The notes beneath the pieces are model-generated. The model made no database searches. It had not been told where the DNA came from and saw nothing but the letters and a program-made list of their open reading frames with translations. Shown in pieces: positions 36,527-58,296 of a DNA stretch of 64,000 nucleotides (position 1 is its first letter; each line of letters starts with the position of its first letter). The position numbers were made by a program, and so were the translations under genes. Origin of the DNA: Armatimonadota bacterium. GTDB lineage: Bacteria > Armatimonadota > Fimbriimonadia > Fimbriimonadales > Fimbriimonadaceae. The stretch lies in the NCBI GenBank assembly GCA_017303935.1, contig JAFLBD010000003.1:1-64000 (forward strand), read 5' to 3'.

Positions 36527-37633
36527 CTACGATTGGGTTCGCTTTCGTCGCCGGAGTGCGACGCCCACCAACCCAACTCCAAGAACGATCAGTTCAGATG
36601 GCTCCGGCACTGGGGTGAGGAGTAGATTCTGCTTGTAGACGTTTCCAAAGTAACCGGTTGCAATGATCTCTCTTCTGTTGTTGAACCCAGTAATTGCGAT
36701 TCGTCCATTTTGAATATTTGTAATGGAATTCGAAAAATCGACCATTCCGGTCGATTGTGACCAGAAGTACTGGCGAATGACCCCATTTTCATAACCGGTC
36801 ACGACTACTTCACCATTGTCATTGATAAAGCTAGTCTCACCAAGTGGAGACGGAATTGGATCACGAGTTCCGATATCGATTTTCTGAATTAACTGTCCAG
36901 AAGCGTTCCAGATTGCCAAGAATCTTCGGGTGGAATTGCTGATGACTCCGCTGATCATTCCGCTGGAATTGATGCTGCTGGCGACGCCAAAGTGACCAGC
37001 CAAAGCAAGGCCCGTATAGCTTCCATCGGGATTCCACCGAATCGGATTGAAATTTACACAACCTACAATCGTTCCAGCTTCATCAATGTCCCTGGCAAGG
37101 TTATAACCGTCCCAGTACCCCGGATCAAGGAGTGAGCTACTCGTCGGTGAATATCGGATGGCGTTTCCAGTTCCGCCAGACCCGCCATTTCCAAACCACT
37201 CCGCCCAACCTACTGCGGTATGGGCATTGTTCATGGCAAATGACTCGAACCAATAGTTCTGTCCATTGTCCTGCACCATCAGGTCGGTCATTCCCACGCC
37301 TGGAGTCCAATAACCAACTTTAGTACGGCCAGAACCAGGAATCGGATTTCCATAAACAACCACATCGCCAGCTTCATTAATGCCACCTGACGTGAAATTC
37401 GTGTGCTGGTGAACTGAAGGTGTTGCAGTTACAATCTGTCCGTTAGTATTAATCCTGAAAAGGCTTTGGGTATTTCTACCGTCGGCAGAAATCTGACCTG
37501 CATTGTTTATCCCAGTAAAGCGGAGTTCTGATTCGCCTGGTGCTGTCACTTCCCGCATTGACCATGTGAGTGCAGAAGAGTGCGAACTTAAAAGGCTCAG
37601 AGCAAAAAAAACTGACACAATCTTAGTCTTCAT
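36527..37633 (-). CDS. HAF-repeat PEP-CTERM surface protein (copy 1)
   Basis: About 368 residues from ATG 37633 (GGAGG 8 nt upstream; ATG 37636 also possible). Signal peptide KIVSVFFALSLLSSHSSA. The body has at least seven HAF-type repeats, e.g. TGINNAGQISA, GINEAGDVVVYG, MNNAHTAVGWA, SINSSGMISGV, FINDNGEVVVTG and FNNRREIIATG, likely a beta-propeller. It ends in VPEPSELIVLGVG and a basic RRRKRTQS, the exosortase sorting signal. It overlaps the upstream GH5 gene by 11-14 bp and is translationally coupled to it. A paralogue with the same organisation is at 60490-61614. Confidence 0.88.
   Translation of the reverse strand: MKTKIVSVFFALSLLSSHSSALTWSMREVTAPGESELRFTGINNAGQISADGRNTQSLFRINTNGQIVTATPSVHQHTNFTSGGINEAGDVVVYGNPIPGSGRTKVGYWTPGVGMTDLMVQDNGQNYWFESFAMNNAHTAVGWAEWFGNGGSGGTGNAIRYSPTSSSLLDPGYWDGYNLARDIDEAGTIVGCVNFNPIRWNPDGSYTGLALAGHFGVASSINSSGMISGVISNSTRRFLAIWNASGQLIQKIDIGTRDPIPSPLGETSFINDNGEVVVTGYENGVIRQYFWSQSTGMVDFSNSITNIQNGRIAITGFNNRREIIATGYFGNVYKQNLLLTPVPEPSELIVLGVGLVGVALRRRKRTQS
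36542..36629. repeat. Long repeat A, copy 1 (PEP-CTERM coding end)
   Basis: 88 bp that match 60517-60604 with 7 mismatches. It encodes the shared sorting tail of the two HAF proteins. Conservation at the DNA level exceeds that of the rest of the two genes. Confidence 0.85.
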
Positions 37634-53322: not shown

Positions 53323-54103
53323 ATTTTTGCCACTTCTGATGCTCGCGCCATCTTCGGCGCAAGGAGTCGATTGGTACGCGAGCACTGTTGTTAGCTATTC
53401 GAACCTAGGCGTGGGGATTTATGGCGATCCGACTGCAGCACTGGGGCAACCAACCCGGTGGGTGCGGGATACAGTTAACGGCGGAGCGAATCAGCAGGTT
53501 TTCCCCTCCCCAGGCTACGCACCTTGGAACGTAGGGCCAAACTCAGAGCCTCTTGTGGTGACGATAAAGCCTGGTGGGCAACTGACTTTGGCGTTCACCA
53601 CTGCGATTCAAGACACCCCCGGGAATTGGTACGGATATGACTTTATCGTGTTTGGGAATTCCATCTTGGCGACAAATCAGACTGTCACCGCTAGTTCCAA
53701 CTTCGATCAATTGTTGGTGTTATCGGGTCCGGACTTTCTCGAGCCGATGCAAGTCAGCGTCAGTCCGAATGGGCTGCAATGGTACAGCTATCCGGTGACG
53801 AATTCGACCGGCGCCGACAGCCTCTGGCCAACGCTCGCCTTCAATCCATCGGACGGGACACCGACCGATTTCACCAAACCCATACGTCCAACGTTATCGC
53901 GTTCGGCCTATTCCGGCCAGAGCCTGAACTCGCTTTGCGCGGCATATCTCGGAAGCGGTGGCGGCACGGCTTTCGATCTGCGGCCCTCTGGGTTTAGAAG
54001 CATCAAATACATTCGCATCACTGGTAACTCTGGCGAGGTAGACGCGATCGCGCGTGTATCTCGCGGAGTCACCCCCGTCCAAACCCAAATTTCAATTGAC
54101 TAA
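53309..54103 (+). CDS. Secreted surface protein (B12-riboswitch gene 2)
   Basis: 264 residues from ATG 53309, overlapping gene 1 by 14 bp (AAGGGG 9 nt upstream). Signal peptide (TRFLPLLMLAPSSAQG). The mature part has WYGYDFIVFGNSIL, EPMQVSVSPNGLQWYSYP, GGGTAFDLRP and FRSIKYIRITGNSGEVDAIA. This pattern recalls cell-surface proteins with a discoidin-like or glycan-binding sandwich that I have seen beside B12-regulated loci in other phyla; that association is from memory. No anchor of its own. Confidence 0.7.
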   Translation: MTWTRFLPLLMLAPSSAQGVDWYASTVVSYSNLGVGIYGDPTAALGQPTRWVRDTVNGGANQQVFPSPGYAPWNVGPNSEPLVVTIKPGGQLTLAFTTAIQDTPGNWYGYDFIVFGNSILATNQTVTASSNFDQLLVLSGPDFLEPMQVSVSPNGLQWYSYPVTNSTGADSLWPTLAFNPSDGTPTDFTKPIRPTLSRSAYSGQSLNSLCAAYLGSGGGTAFDLRPSGFRSIKYIRITGNSGEVDAIARVSRGVTPVQTQISID

Positions 54104-54655
54104 ATGAAAACTCTCTCACTATCTCTCCTTGTCGTCCTTGCCGCGACTAGCCATGCCATCAGCTTCGATGATCTTCAAGTTTGGGCAGGATCAGGATCAA
54201 ACCGCGCGATGATCGTCATTGACTTTGCAGATGGCCAAACGACCAGCTCTTTCGCTTGGGGATATCGCTGGAATGGCACTGCGACGGGCGAAGATGCTTT
54301 GCGGGCAATTGTGAACATCGACCCGCTTCTCACTGCGAGTTATGACGACTTTGGATCTTTTGGATTTGCAGTCAACACCATAACTTATGGATCACGTACA
54401 GGCGCATACGATGTCAACTCCGGGCGATATTGGAGCTATTGGAATTCCCCAACGACGAATCTCAATTGGAGCTTCGCGAGTACAGGAATGTCGAGCCGAC
54501 AACTGCTTGATGGCAATATTGACGGTTGGAGCTTTAGCGCGCCAAATTGGAACGCTTCAGCGCCTTCGAACCCTATTGCAGCAGTGCCAGAACCGATGAC
54601 GTTGCTTGGTCTAGCAATAGGCCTTGCTACTCTTCGGAAGGCGCGTCGGCGATAA
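54104..54655 (+). CDS. PEP-CTERM surface protein (B12-riboswitch gene 3)
   Basis: 183 residues starting directly after the stop of gene 2. Signal peptide (LSLSLLVVLAATSHA). The body opens FDDLQVWAGSGSNRAMIVIDF and continues FAWGYRWNGTATGEDALRAIV, a conserved block that resembles a family encoded near B12-regulated genes elsewhere. Trp- and Tyr-rich throughout. It ends VPEPMTLLGLAIG...RKARRR, an exosortase sorting tail, so it would be tethered to the outer surface. Candidate B12 binder; untested. Confidence 0.75.
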   Translation: MKTLSLSLLVVLAATSHAISFDDLQVWAGSGSNRAMIVIDFADGQTTSSFAWGYRWNGTATGEDALRAIVNIDPLLTASYDDFGSFGFAVNTITYGSRTGAYDVNSGRYWSYWNSPTTNLNWSFASTGMSSRQLLDGNIDGWSFSAPNWNASAPSNPIAAVPEPMTLLGLAIGLATLRKARRR

Positions 54656-55106
54656 AAATCCCCGCATACTCTTCTGAATCCTCGACGATCTCTGCGTTTA
54701 CAGGAGAGTCAAATATTCGAGTCCAAAACTCTTCGACCTCGGCTTCGTCTCGTAGGATCCGGTCGTAGCTTTCGGTGAAAAATGGCGGGAATCTCTCGCC
54801 AGATTTCTTGATGATCTCCTTTCCGGCTTTGGTCTTAGCGCGTTCGATGATCTCGCTCAGCTCGTAGTTCTCGCCTTTGGCTGAAGCCTCAACGGTGAAG
54901 ATCATTTCCGTGACTTCCGGGAGCACGCAGCAGATGATCAGGTTCCAGCGCCGCCCGTTCGGACGCAAAAGTTGTCGTAGGAGAAGGTTGACTTCCGTCT
55001 CGTTCAGGGGTCGGCGGTGACGGAATGTCGCGTAATACTGCACGTCATCCGCGCGCCAATGGGGCAACTTCCCTCTCCAAATCTTGAAGTTCTGCCACCG
55101 ACTCAT
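54627..55106 (-). CDS. REP-associated tyrosine transposase-like protein without HUH motif
   Basis: 159 residues, the size of a RAYT (Y1 transposase of the IS200/IS605 kind). Collinear features: KLPHWRADDVQYYATFRHRRPL matches the family start, WNLIICCVLPEVTEMIF sits where MPNHVHLL carries HUH, and ESYDRILRDEAEVEEFWTRI with the SPVNAEIVE helix matches the Tyr-bearing end (Tyr112). The two His are replaced (P-E-V-T-E), so nicking should be lost. The gene overlaps the glnB stop by 4 bp and overlaps the convergent PEP-CTERM gene by 29 bp, suggesting a domesticated partner of PII. Confidence 0.7.
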   Translation of the reverse strand: MSRWQNFKIWRGKLPHWRADDVQYYATFRHRRPLNETEVNLLLRQLLRPNGRRWNLIICCVLPEVTEMIFTVEASAKGENYELSEIIERAKTKAGKEIIKKSGERFPPFFTESYDRILRDEAEVEEFWTRIFDSPVNAEIVEDSEEYAGIFIADAPSEE

Positions 55107-55444
55107 TGAATCGCGGCTTCGCCTCTCTCGCCTGTACGAATTCGAATCACGTCCTGAACATCAGAGATGAAGATTTTCCCGTCACCGATTTCACCGGTTT
55201 GCGACGATTGGCAAATGGCCTCGATCGCAGCATCCACCAATTCGTCCGGAACCACAACTGTGATTCTAAGCTTCGGGATCAGATTCTGAGCATAAGTACT
55301 TCCACGATACAGGTCAGTCTGACCTTGCTGACGGCCGTACCCTTTTACCGTCTCAACGGTGAGCGCATACACTTGCGCGTCTTCCAGTGCTTGTTTGACG
55401 CTCTCGAGCGCGTTACTCCGCAGATAGGCTTCGATCTTCTTCAT
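55103..55444 (-). CDS. glnB: Nitrogen regulatory protein PII
   Basis: 113 residues. N-terminal MKKIEAYLRSNALESVKQAL, the T-loop with RQQGQTDLYRGSTYAQNLIPK, retaining Tyr51 for uridylylation, and the two PII signature blocks (LRITVVVPDELVD, GDGKIFISDVQDVIRIRTGERGE). It senses 2-oxoglutarate and ATP/ADP. glnA and amtB are not adjacent; instead it is coupled by a 4-bp overlap to the decayed transposase-like gene. Confidence 0.96.
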   Translation of the reverse strand: MKKIEAYLRSNALESVKQALEDAQVYALTVETVKGYGRQQGQTDLYRGSTYAQNLIPKLRITVVVPDELVDAAIEAICQSSQTGEIGDGKIFISDVQDVIRIRTGERGEAAIQ

Positions 55445-55508
55445 AATCGCTTTTGTTGAAGTTTACTAAGGTTCAATCATCTCTGCCGACCTCCTCGATC
55501 ATTTGTCC

Positions 55509-56726
55509 ATGTTCACAGCACTTAGATCAGAAAATTTGATTCGAATCGGCGCGCTGGTTTCGGTTTCTGGTGCGATCGCGGGAGTTGCCATGCCTCATGC
55601 CGGCTGGGTCTTGATTCCGAGCATCGCTGGATTAGTCCTGGTCGGGGTTGGTTTGGTTCGGTTCGAGAGAGAGAGGGTCCGAATCGCCGCTGAAGCTAGA
55701 GATGCGCAAAGCCAAAAGAACCTGCTCGAAGAATTGGTGATGGGGCAGGACGCAGCGTTGTTCGTTTGTGAACCGGACGCCTCGGTGCGGTTTGCCAACA
55801 AGCGCGCAAGAGACACTTTCCGCTTCGATAATCCGGTTGGCTCACCGATTTTGAAGGTCACCTTATCCCACGAGATATCGGAACTCATTTCGCGGGCGAT
55901 CGGGCAACAGGAGCCGATTTTGGAAGAGATTGGGATTCGAACTGACGAGGACAGAATCTTCCTGGTAAAAGCTTGGCACCGCCCTGAGAATACGCAGGAA
56001 ATCTTTCTCTCGCTGATCGACATGACGCAAATCAAGCGGCTTGAACGCGTCCGCTCGGATTTTGTCGCCAATGTCTCACACGAATTGCGGACGCCGCTCA
56101 CTAACATACGCGCGATGAACGAGATTCTTGCTGAATCAGAGCCCGAAGAGCGAGAACTGTTCCAGCGTTACCTCGGCTCCAGTATCCGCGAAGTCGATCG
56201 GCTCACTCGAATCGTGGAAGACCTGCTGACCTTGAGCCTTGCCGAGCGTGGCAAATTGACTTCGGAGATTTGTGATCTGACCGCTATTGTCGAAGCAACA
56301 GTCGCTCAATTAGAGCCCAAAGCGAAATCAAAGGGGCTCACAATCAGCAAGTCGATCCAGCCTGCCATCGAAGTCAACGGTAATCCAAGCCAGCTCGCGC
56401 AAATCGTTTTCAACCTTGTCGACAACGCAATCAATTACACGAAAGAAGGATCGATTCGGATTGAGCTGAACACGGAAAGTAACTTAGCAAAGCTCTCGAT
56501 CCAGGATTCCGGAATCGGGATTCCAAGCGAAGATCAACCCCGGGTGTTCGAGCGCTTCTACCGAGTGGACAAAAGCCGTTCGAAAGAAACCGGCGGAACG
56601 GGCCTAGGCTTAAGCATCGTCAAGCACTTGGTCGAAACACACGGTGGGCAGATTGAACTCCAAAGTGCGCTCAACCAAGGCAGCACTTTCACCATTTGGT
56701 TAAACCTTAGCGAACCCGAGTCGTAA
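55509..56726 (+). CDS. PhoR-like sensor histidine kinase (orphan)
   Basis: 405 residues from ATG 55509. Two transmembrane segments at the N-terminus with almost no loop between (GALVSVSGAIAGVAM, GWVLIPSIAGLVLVGVGLV), a PAS-like domain (about 65-165), HisKA with the phospho-acceptor in FVANVSHELRTPLTN, and HATPase with N box NLVDNAINYTKEG, GIGIPSEDQ and GTGLGLSIVKHLV. The lack of a periplasmic sensor loop resembles PhoR. No response regulator gene lies beside it. It runs toward the GHL10 gene on the other strand, with 20 bp overlap. Confidence 0.92.
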   Translation: MFTALRSENLIRIGALVSVSGAIAGVAMPHAGWVLIPSIAGLVLVGVGLVRFERERVRIAAEARDAQSQKNLLEELVMGQDAALFVCEPDASVRFANKRARDTFRFDNPVGSPILKVTLSHEISELISRAIGQQEPILEEIGIRTDEDRIFLVKAWHRPENTQEIFLSLIDMTQIKRLERVRSDFVANVSHELRTPLTNIRAMNEILAESEPEERELFQRYLGSSIREVDRLTRIVEDLLTLSLAERGKLTSEICDLTAIVEATVAQLEPKAKSKGLTISKSIQPAIEVNGNPSQLAQIVFNLVDNAINYTKEGSIRIELNTESNLAKLSIQDSGIGIPSEDQPRVFERFYRVDKSRSKETGGTGLGLSIVKHLVETHGGQIELQSALNQGSTFTIWLNLSEPES

Positions 56727-58296
56727 GAACTGAAGGGTCAAACACGCGTGTGGCGTAGGCGGATTGGTTACCTGATTTGTCGACGGCGGCGACTCCAATC
56801 GCTCGCAATGAGCCGCTCGCAGACTTGATATTCACTACTGTGCTCAGTGTCGAACTTGGAACTACCGAATGACTCCAAGTAGTGCCGACAAGGGTACTGA
56901 TCAAGTACCACCTAGCCGCATCGCTACCGCCCGGCAAACTCCATGTGAAGAGGTGCTGAGAACTGGACTTACTGTAGCTCAGAATCGGACGAGCCGGTGC
57001 TGCGTTGTCGAGCCAAGCGGAAGCCGGGATCAAAGCGTCCGTTGAATATAAACCGTTCGCCAGGAGGGTCTTCAGACTCTGTGTATCGTCACGAATCACT
57101 TTCGCGCTGTAGTGCACGTTTCCGGTCGCTCCCGGCGTGTTCCGAGTCACGGAAATCTGGTCGATGATCTCCTGCGCGGGCCATGTGTTGCCAATCAGCT
57201 GACTGGTGTAGTTCGATGCCCAAACATGCCGCCCTTGCGTATTTTGCGACACCCACCAGTTCAACAACGAGCCATAAGGCTGACCCGTCGATGAAATTTT
57301 CCAATAAAGCTGCGGCGCGAGAAAGTCCACCCAACCGTTGTTTAGCCAAAGTTTGCTGTCTGCATAAAGCTCCGCATAGGAGTTCAGCCCGGTAACCCCT
57401 GCCGGATTCCCCGGTTGCCAAATTCCAAACGGCCCGATCCCGAACAGGCATTGAGGTTTGGCGGCCTTGATGCTTGTGTAGATGTCGTAGACGAAGTCGT
57501 TGACGTTCTTTCGCCGCCAGTTCGACAGAGTCAGACCTCCGCCATACAGCGCGAAGCTGGAAGTATCTGGAAAGGCGTAAAGTCCGTTCGGATAGGGATA
57601 GAAGTAGTCGTCAAACACCAAACCGTCGATGTCGTAACGATTGACGATGTCCATGATGACCGCTTTACTGTGCGCGGCAGATGCAGGCTCGCCTGGATCA
57701 AGCCAGTACTGATCGGCACCGGAAGAGTTCTCGTAAAGCTTGACAACGCTCGGCCGAGAGCGATACGAATGAAGCGGATGGACGTACGCCGTCGATGAAG
57801 TCGTGGCCGTATCCACCCATCCTGTGCCTGGTGGCGGCGAAAAACTCGGCACGTTCACGATCATGCGATATGGGTTGACCCAAGCATAGAGTTGCATGCC
57901 GCGCTGCCGCGCCGCGACGATCCATTCCGCAAGTGGATCGTAAGTTCCGGTCGGAGCCAGCCCCTGCCGCCCGGTCAGATAGTACGACCATGGTTCTAGC
58001 GTGGACGGGTACATCGCATCGCCAGCCGACCGAACCTGCAGGAAGACGCAATTCATGTTGGCGGCAGCCATGCCATCCAAAATTGCGTTCATCTGCGTTC
58101 GTTGGGAAGCGATCGAAGTCGTGGTAGTTCCGCGAGTCGTCGGCCAATCAATGCCGTAAACCGATGCGACCCAAGCAGCCCGCATCTCACGCTGGACCGA
58201 GGGGATCGAAATTTGAGGGTTGTTGATCATGGCCAAGTTCTGGGCCATGACGCTGCCCGCGCACATGAGCGTGCCGGCTACCATCAACTCTCTCAT
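56707..58296 (-). CDS. GHL10/DUF187-type glycosidase with C-terminal Fn3-like domain (paralogue 1)
   Basis: 529 residues from ATG 58296 (a G-rich ribosome site 7 nt upstream; ATG 58302 also possible). Signal peptide RELMVAGTLMCAGSVMA. The catalytic domain shows REMRAAWVASVYGIDWP, VFLQVRSAGDAMYPS, LYAWVNPYRM, YDIDGLVFDDYFYPYP and GIGPFGIW, the glycosyl-hydrolase-like 10 barrel. The last 90 residues (PARPILSYSKSSSQHLFTW) look like a fibronectin-III-type domain. Probably acts on peptidoglycan-like or surface glycans. Tandem with a shorter paralogue just upstream. Confidence 0.88.
   Translation of the reverse strand: MRELMVAGTLMCAGSVMAQNLAMINNPQISIPSVQREMRAAWVASVYGIDWPTTRGTTTTSIASQRTQMNAILDGMAAANMNCVFLQVRSAGDAMYPSTLEPWSYYLTGRQGLAPTGTYDPLAEWIVAARQRGMQLYAWVNPYRMIVNVPSFSPPPGTGWVDTATTSSTAYVHPLHSYRSRPSVVKLYENSSGADQYWLDPGEPASAAHSKAVIMDIVNRYDIDGLVFDDYFYPYPNGLYAFPDTSSFALYGGGLTLSNWRRKNVNDFVYDIYTSIKAAKPQCLFGIGPFGIWQPGNPAGVTGLNSYAELYADSKLWLNNGWVDFLAPQLYWKISSTGQPYGSLLNWWVSQNTQGRHVWASNYTSQLIGNTWPAQEIIDQISVTRNTPGATGNVHYSAKVIRDDTQSLKTLLANGLYSTDALIPASAWLDNAAPARPILSYSKSSSQHLFTWSLPGGSDAARWYLISTLVGTTWSHSVVPSSTLSTVVNIKSASGSLRAIGVAAVDKSGNQSAYATRVFDPSVLTTRVR

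Follow-up and report, generated by a model that had tools for sequence, protein, structure and literature searches.

A predicted nuclease-dead protein derived from REP-associated tyrosine transposases, encoded next to glnB, is a core gene in a family of Armatimonadota

Organisation of the glnB locus

The analysed window, a 64,000-nucleotide stretch of an Armatimonadota genome, contains a PII gene directly followed by an ORF whose product is related to REP-associated tyrosine transposases (RAYTs). The following features were distinguished:

55103-55444, minus strand: glnB, encoding a 113-aa PII protein (Pfam P-II match at E = 3.6e-27); canonical T-loop, GRQQGQTDLYRG..Y; B-loop, TGEIGDGKIF; C-loop, RIRTGE
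54627-55106, minus strand: 159-aa ORF, the RAYT-derived gene, predicted to be nuclease-dead and a core gene throughout the family
55103-55106, minus strand: 4-bp stop/start overlap ATGA, read directly, composed of the glnB TGA and the ATG of the RAYT-derived gene

The initial annotation had described a 4-bp overlap of the two reading frames, and both ORFs were indeed found at the expected positions, sharing the ATGA. The same overlap is present at loci L088, L098, L100 and L124. Within the window, a histidine kinase gene is transcribed divergently from glnB, while the genes located past the 159-aa ORF have the opposite orientation. An Rfam scan of positions 53500-57000 gave no match. The glnB gene adjoining the RAYT-derived gene encodes the only PII protein of the window genome with a canonical T-loop; a second PII-like gene (G000:C2:896499; L183:6452-6838) lacks the canonical T-loop tyrosine region.

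The ORF beside the RAYT-derived gene (54104-54655) ends in an arginine-rich tail resembling a PEP-type anchor (VPEPMTLLGLAIGLATLRKARRR). Near-identical repeats at window positions 36563 and 60538 and at locus L178 (G000:C3, ~378011) resemble the coding end of PEP-type C-terminal anchors with an arginine-rich tail.

Descent from RAYTs

The 159-aa protein descends from RAYTs, and by membership tests it is not a functional RAYT. It matches the NCBIfam model NF047646 (REP_Tyr_transpos) with E = 5.1e-6 and 26.4 bits, below the curated cut-off of 80 bits; by this comparison the protein is a homologue of the modelled family but not a member under the curators' rule. The same model also recognises 27 of the 36 orthologs examined, the best of them with E = 8.7e-12. 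When the family profile was compared with PDB sequences, TnpA_REP (4er8) ranked first, with a collinear alignment and E = 0.04.

A structural model predicted from the single sequence was poor (pLDDT 51), and an AlphaFold model based on the alignment of the 36 orthologs was used instead (pLDDT 85, pTM 0.79; the N-terminal 17 residues are uncertain). Its best PDB match by Foldseek is again 4er8 (E = 1.9e-6), which is also ranked first by VIA-align (Z 13.8, rmsd 3.2, 138 residues). The collinearity with RAYTs proposed in the initial annotation is thus borne out beyond chance by the NF047646 matches and by the first rank of 4er8 in both profile and fold searches, and the structure prediction suggested there as a check returned a Y1-transposase fold. 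Like TnpA_REP of E. coli, the protein has this predicted fold with the same order of elements, an ESYDRIxRD block and the lysine of helix alpha3, and it is encoded by a single-copy chromosomal gene; the LPHW/TF start is shared with the nearest-relative RAYTs.

The IS200, IS608 and ISDra2 transposases share the Y1 fold, but they score clearly below 4er8 (Z ~10) and are thus more distant than TnpA_REP. Pfam Y1_Tnp (PF01797), the model of IS200/IS605 TnpA proteins, has no match in the window genome and none among the 36 members, and the RAYT-derived family lacks the catalytic motif of these enzymes. Pfam as a whole gave no meaningful match to the family, and PHROGs gave one weak match, to a single member. 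In an unrooted tree the RAYT-derived family forms one side of a branch with 100/100 support, the canonical RAYTs being on the other. The shared fold alone does not give the function.

Loss of the catalytic residues

Motifs were compared in an alignment of 62 family sequences with their 16 nearest outside relatives. Two sites are of particular importance:

54906-54920, minus strand: former HUH site, residues 63-67 PEVTE (P-D-H-V-H, PDHVH, in relatives)
54717-54719, minus strand: codon of R130, at the position of the catalytic tyrosine (YxxxNP in relatives), from the alignment with relatives

Both histidines of the HUH site are present in 16/16 relatives. In the family the first (position 65) is replaced by K, Q, A, R or V and the second (position 67) mostly by E or D (57/62 orthologs), while position 66 is T or S in 62/62. 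No P-x-H-x-H motif was found in any of the 64 family loci. The catalytic tyrosine, likewise present in all 16 relatives, is R130 in the window protein and A, E, S, R or Q in its orthologs, and the Asn of YxxxNP (position 134; N in 16/16 relatives) is S in the window protein and mostly S among the 62 orthologs. The helix that carried the tyrosine is still present. The earlier description of a replaced His-x-His site and of a Tyr helix therefore holds for the HUH site and for the helix as such, but not for its tyrosine.

Both motifs, HuH and Y, are common to members of the superfamily, in which the YxxxNP asparagine (E. coli N119) contributes to metal binding (PMC6006769). The loss of HUH, Tyr and Asn excludes, at the level of sequence, cleavage by the known mechanism, and the RAYT-derived protein is predicted to be unable to cut DNA or to form a tyrosine-DNA bond in this way. 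Since T/S66 and E/D67 are conserved while positions 65 and 130 drift, the former HUH pocket may have a new use. Its remodelling into another active site, with metal- or ligand-dependent chemistry, is nevertheless very improbable: no conserved candidate nucleophile takes the place of the tyrosine, and the T/S66-E/D67 pair may be just structural.

Conservation and selection

The taxonomic family to which the window belongs is represented by 85 genomes, and a family-alignment search detected the RAYT-derived gene in 80 of them, each time with at least 103 bits. It is present in all 32 genera and, in one copy each, in 70/70 genomes that are at least 90% complete; the five genomes without it are 68-89% complete. 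When 24 other genomes of the order were searched with the single sequence, the only match was weak (E = 1.3e-6) and corresponded to a canonical RAYT. Across 151 sampled genomes of the phylum, the best matches outside the family did not exceed 98.7 bits; ten of these were fetched, and the eight that were readable all have the HUH motif. Canonical Y1_Tnp genes are scattered across many genomes of the family, and the window genome has none.

The gene evolves under purifying selection, with dN/dS of 0.03-0.18 in eight close pairs (0.04-0.35 in more distant pairs with computable dS, where dS is near saturation and the values are unreliable). The gene is conserved across the family and is neither unique to this strain nor decaying. 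Loss of both catalytic motifs is what would be expected of a decaying transposase remnant, but this reading carries next to no weight against such dN/dS values, residues invariant in the 62 orthologs and presence in every genome of at least 90% completeness; a pseudogene is ruled out by the dN/dS values and by universality in the family. Family-wide retention suggests that the cell uses the gene for something other than transposition.

Linkage to PII and dnaK

PII was found in 71 of the 85 family genomes, and the 14 without it all keep the RAYT-derived gene. By hand tally of the 80 gene-bearing genomes, 43 (~17 genera) have glnB upstream in the same orientation at a distance of no more than ~1.1 kb, 23 encode PII only elsewhere, and 14 have no PII. 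At the 64 loci of the genome collection, PII is located upstream in 33, within 110 bp in 24 of these. Gene ends overlap or touch in 9/64 loci, four of the ATGA and five of the TGATG type; the ATGA overlap is limited to close relatives, and the other linked genomes have a TGATG junction, a short gap or a distance of up to ~1 kb. The linkage is interrupted inside three genera (g4, g15 and g20), and loci L109, L136 and L139 retain histidine kinase, gene, DUF1800 and DUF1501 in this order and lack glnB alone. The ancestral order looks like histidine kinase - glnB - gene - (DUF1800 - DUF1501) - dnaK.

The tally and the locus orders indicate that the linkage is old and far above chance, yet not needed for keeping the gene. 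Similar glnB pairs, for which a search had been proposed, therefore exist well beyond this strain, but the claim of a fixed partner of PII fails, the gene being more conserved than PII itself. A dedicated PII partner or effector, translationally coupled and controlled by direct PII contact, would account for the recurrent linkage, for the overlapping or touching ends and for the presence of the sole canonical T-loop PII of the window genome at this site. We consider it distinctly unlikely in view of the genomes in which PII is absent or encoded only elsewhere, the breaks within three genera and the loss of glnB alone from an otherwise intact order; moreover, in one PII-less pair (L095/L097, G015/G091 by contig coordinates) the gene is under purifying selection, with dN/dS of 0.096. 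Its basic job is independent of PII, and co-expression with PII is likely at loci with an overlap or only a short distance between glnB and the gene. This corrects the idea of a PII partner, which would have misdirected experiments.

The dnaK gene adjoins the RAYT-derived gene in 16/64 loci. Inverted repeats resembling HAIR (TTGAGT...ACTCAAG) were found between the two genes at L087, L102, L103, L111, L112, L133 and other loci. They fit the HspR HAIR operator pattern, CTTGAGT-N7-ACTCAAG, which suggests HspR control of dnaK in this family. These conserved repeats were also considered as a binding target of the RAYT-derived protein, and this was rejected, as the HAIR pattern is read as ordinary dnaK control.

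Retained surface and charge

Three segments correspond to the parts of RAYTs relevant to DNA contact:

55002-55106, minus strand: N-terminal block NF.IWRG.LPHWRAD..YY.TFRHRR, residues 1-35 (alignment and charge)
54798-54860, minus strand: helix 83-103, counterpart of the TnpA_REP DNA-binding helix alpha3 (alignment and model; role of alpha3, PMC8266576)
54747-54773, minus strand: ESYDRILRD, residues 112-120 (HMMER alignment with TnpA_REP; PMC8266576)

Residues common to the family and its relatives are P15, H16, W17, Y24, T27, F28, R29, K91, E112, S113, D115, R116, I117, R119 and D120. Lysine K91, within helix 83-103, is present in 61/62 orthologs and 16/16 relatives. In the N-terminal block, LPHW/TF is kept from RAYTs, while NF..W and RAD are family-specific: N6, F7, W10, R18 and A19 are conserved in the 62 orthologs only, not in the 16 relatives. 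In the HMMER alignment, D115 and R119, the latter invariant, correspond to positions 100 and 104 in TnpA_REP of E. coli. These positions, together with Q95, contact the GTAG and are relatively conserved in two TnpA_REP groups, whereas the stem contacts are made by helix alpha3 (PMC8266576). Q95 itself is not kept in the RAYT-derived family.

The mean net charge of the N-terminal block is +4.9, compared with +3.5 in canonical RAYTs, and that of helix 83-103 is +3.4 compared with +3.6. In contrast, residues 121-150 carry -8.3 in the family and -3.8 in canonical RAYTs, and the mean pI of the whole protein is 6.0 as against 8.2 in relatives (5.2 for the window member). This acidic C-terminal part and the new conserved N-terminal NF..W and HWRAD elements set the family apart from TnpA_REP. 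The acidity of the whole protein may point to weakened or lost binding of nucleic acids, and the retained residues could be structural.

Such a loss of binding is assumed if the protein is a protein-protein adaptor, related to nitrogen control, chaperones or translation, in which the NF..W/HWRAD block and the acidic C-terminal part serve as interaction surfaces. The residues conserved in this family only, the low pI and the presence of glnB and dnaK among the neighbours fit an adaptor. We hold it to be unlikely, because charge and key residues are preserved in the segments that correspond to the DNA-contacting elements of TnpA_REP; besides, dnaK is preceded by a promoter region of its own, which contains a HAIR-like repeat, so its adjacency may be passive.

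Search for REP-like hairpins

No dispersed family of REP-like or GTAG-tagged hairpins was found in the 464 kb (18%) sampled from the ~2.56 Mb window genome, and in the same sample GTAG hairpins were not enriched over control tetramers. In this the sampled part of the genome differs from TnpA_REP-type systems with their REP populations, which weighs against a hairpin-binding role. Outside the window, about ten C-rich hairpins with variable loops are clustered locally at G000:C3:244000-289000 (L171-L173). These repeats have the form CCCCCTCAT-N-ATGAGGGGGG, several being followed by TTAGGGG; genome-wide, just four sites show the strict form. As the cluster is local, these hairpins were rejected as a dispersed REP family.

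Proposed function

The reading we favour, with a probability of about 0.5, is that of a domesticated RAYT which would have lost catalysis, kept its hairpin-gripping surface and bind without cutting; binding of this kind is inferred from the retained GTAG-contact residues and basic charge. The ligand would be a folded single strand (an ssDNA hairpin, possibly RNA), held by the basic N-terminal strand, helix 83-103 and the ESYDRIxRD block. Because neither cutting nor a tyrosine-DNA bond is possible by the known mechanism, the protein would act by occupancy, as a regulator, a structure chaperone or an accessory factor of replication or transcription. PII would probably be made together with it at overlapping or closely spaced loci, the basic job being done without PII.

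Nuclease-dead TnpB-like repressors (TldR) are RNA-guided and transposon-derived. The analogy is that of a transposon nucleic-acid enzyme deprived of catalysis and turned into a binder; however, TldR proteins belong to an unrelated family and are RNA-guided, while no guide RNA is suspected here. More tentatively, the nuclease-dead RAYT may be a lineage-wide core gene whose product recognises a specific cellular hairpin without cutting it, a TnpA counterpart of the nuclease-dead TnpB regulators; in some members of the family, co-expression with PII would have been added to this role.

Bertels, Gallie and Rainey are said to have proposed, in 2017, domesticated RAYTs retained by their hosts. The genes described here are likewise host-retained RAYT derivatives, but both HUH and Tyr are gone from them, whereas the proposed domesticated RAYTs keep both, as far as PMC6006769 and PMC8266576 show. 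A literature search that reached few subscription journals found neither an inactive lineage-wide RAYT nor a link between RAYTs and PII. Why bacteria retain single-copy RAYTs for so long is an open question, and the described RAYTs keep their catalytic residues (PMC6006769, PMC8266576). Here catalysis has been removed and the rest kept as a core gene, which makes any binding role separable from transposition and opens the question to direct tests on one protein that lacks the catalytic residues.

Canonical RAYTs within host genes

Canonical HUH RAYTs were also observed in frame and without stop codons inside long host ORFs, in an intein-like placement. One lies within a valyl-tRNA synthetase-type ORF (L155:1599-5102) and another within an ORF for the carbamoyl-phosphate synthase large chain (L070:4080-6443). 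Three are located, apparently at the same site, inside a DUF1156-type DNA methylase: L153:2671-6006 (Chloroflexi), L161:5227-7806 (Bacteroidota) and L187 (Armatimonadota). The peptides flanking in-frame RAYTs, TRGTGVPPV and EHRRDACAT, may represent translated REP arms.
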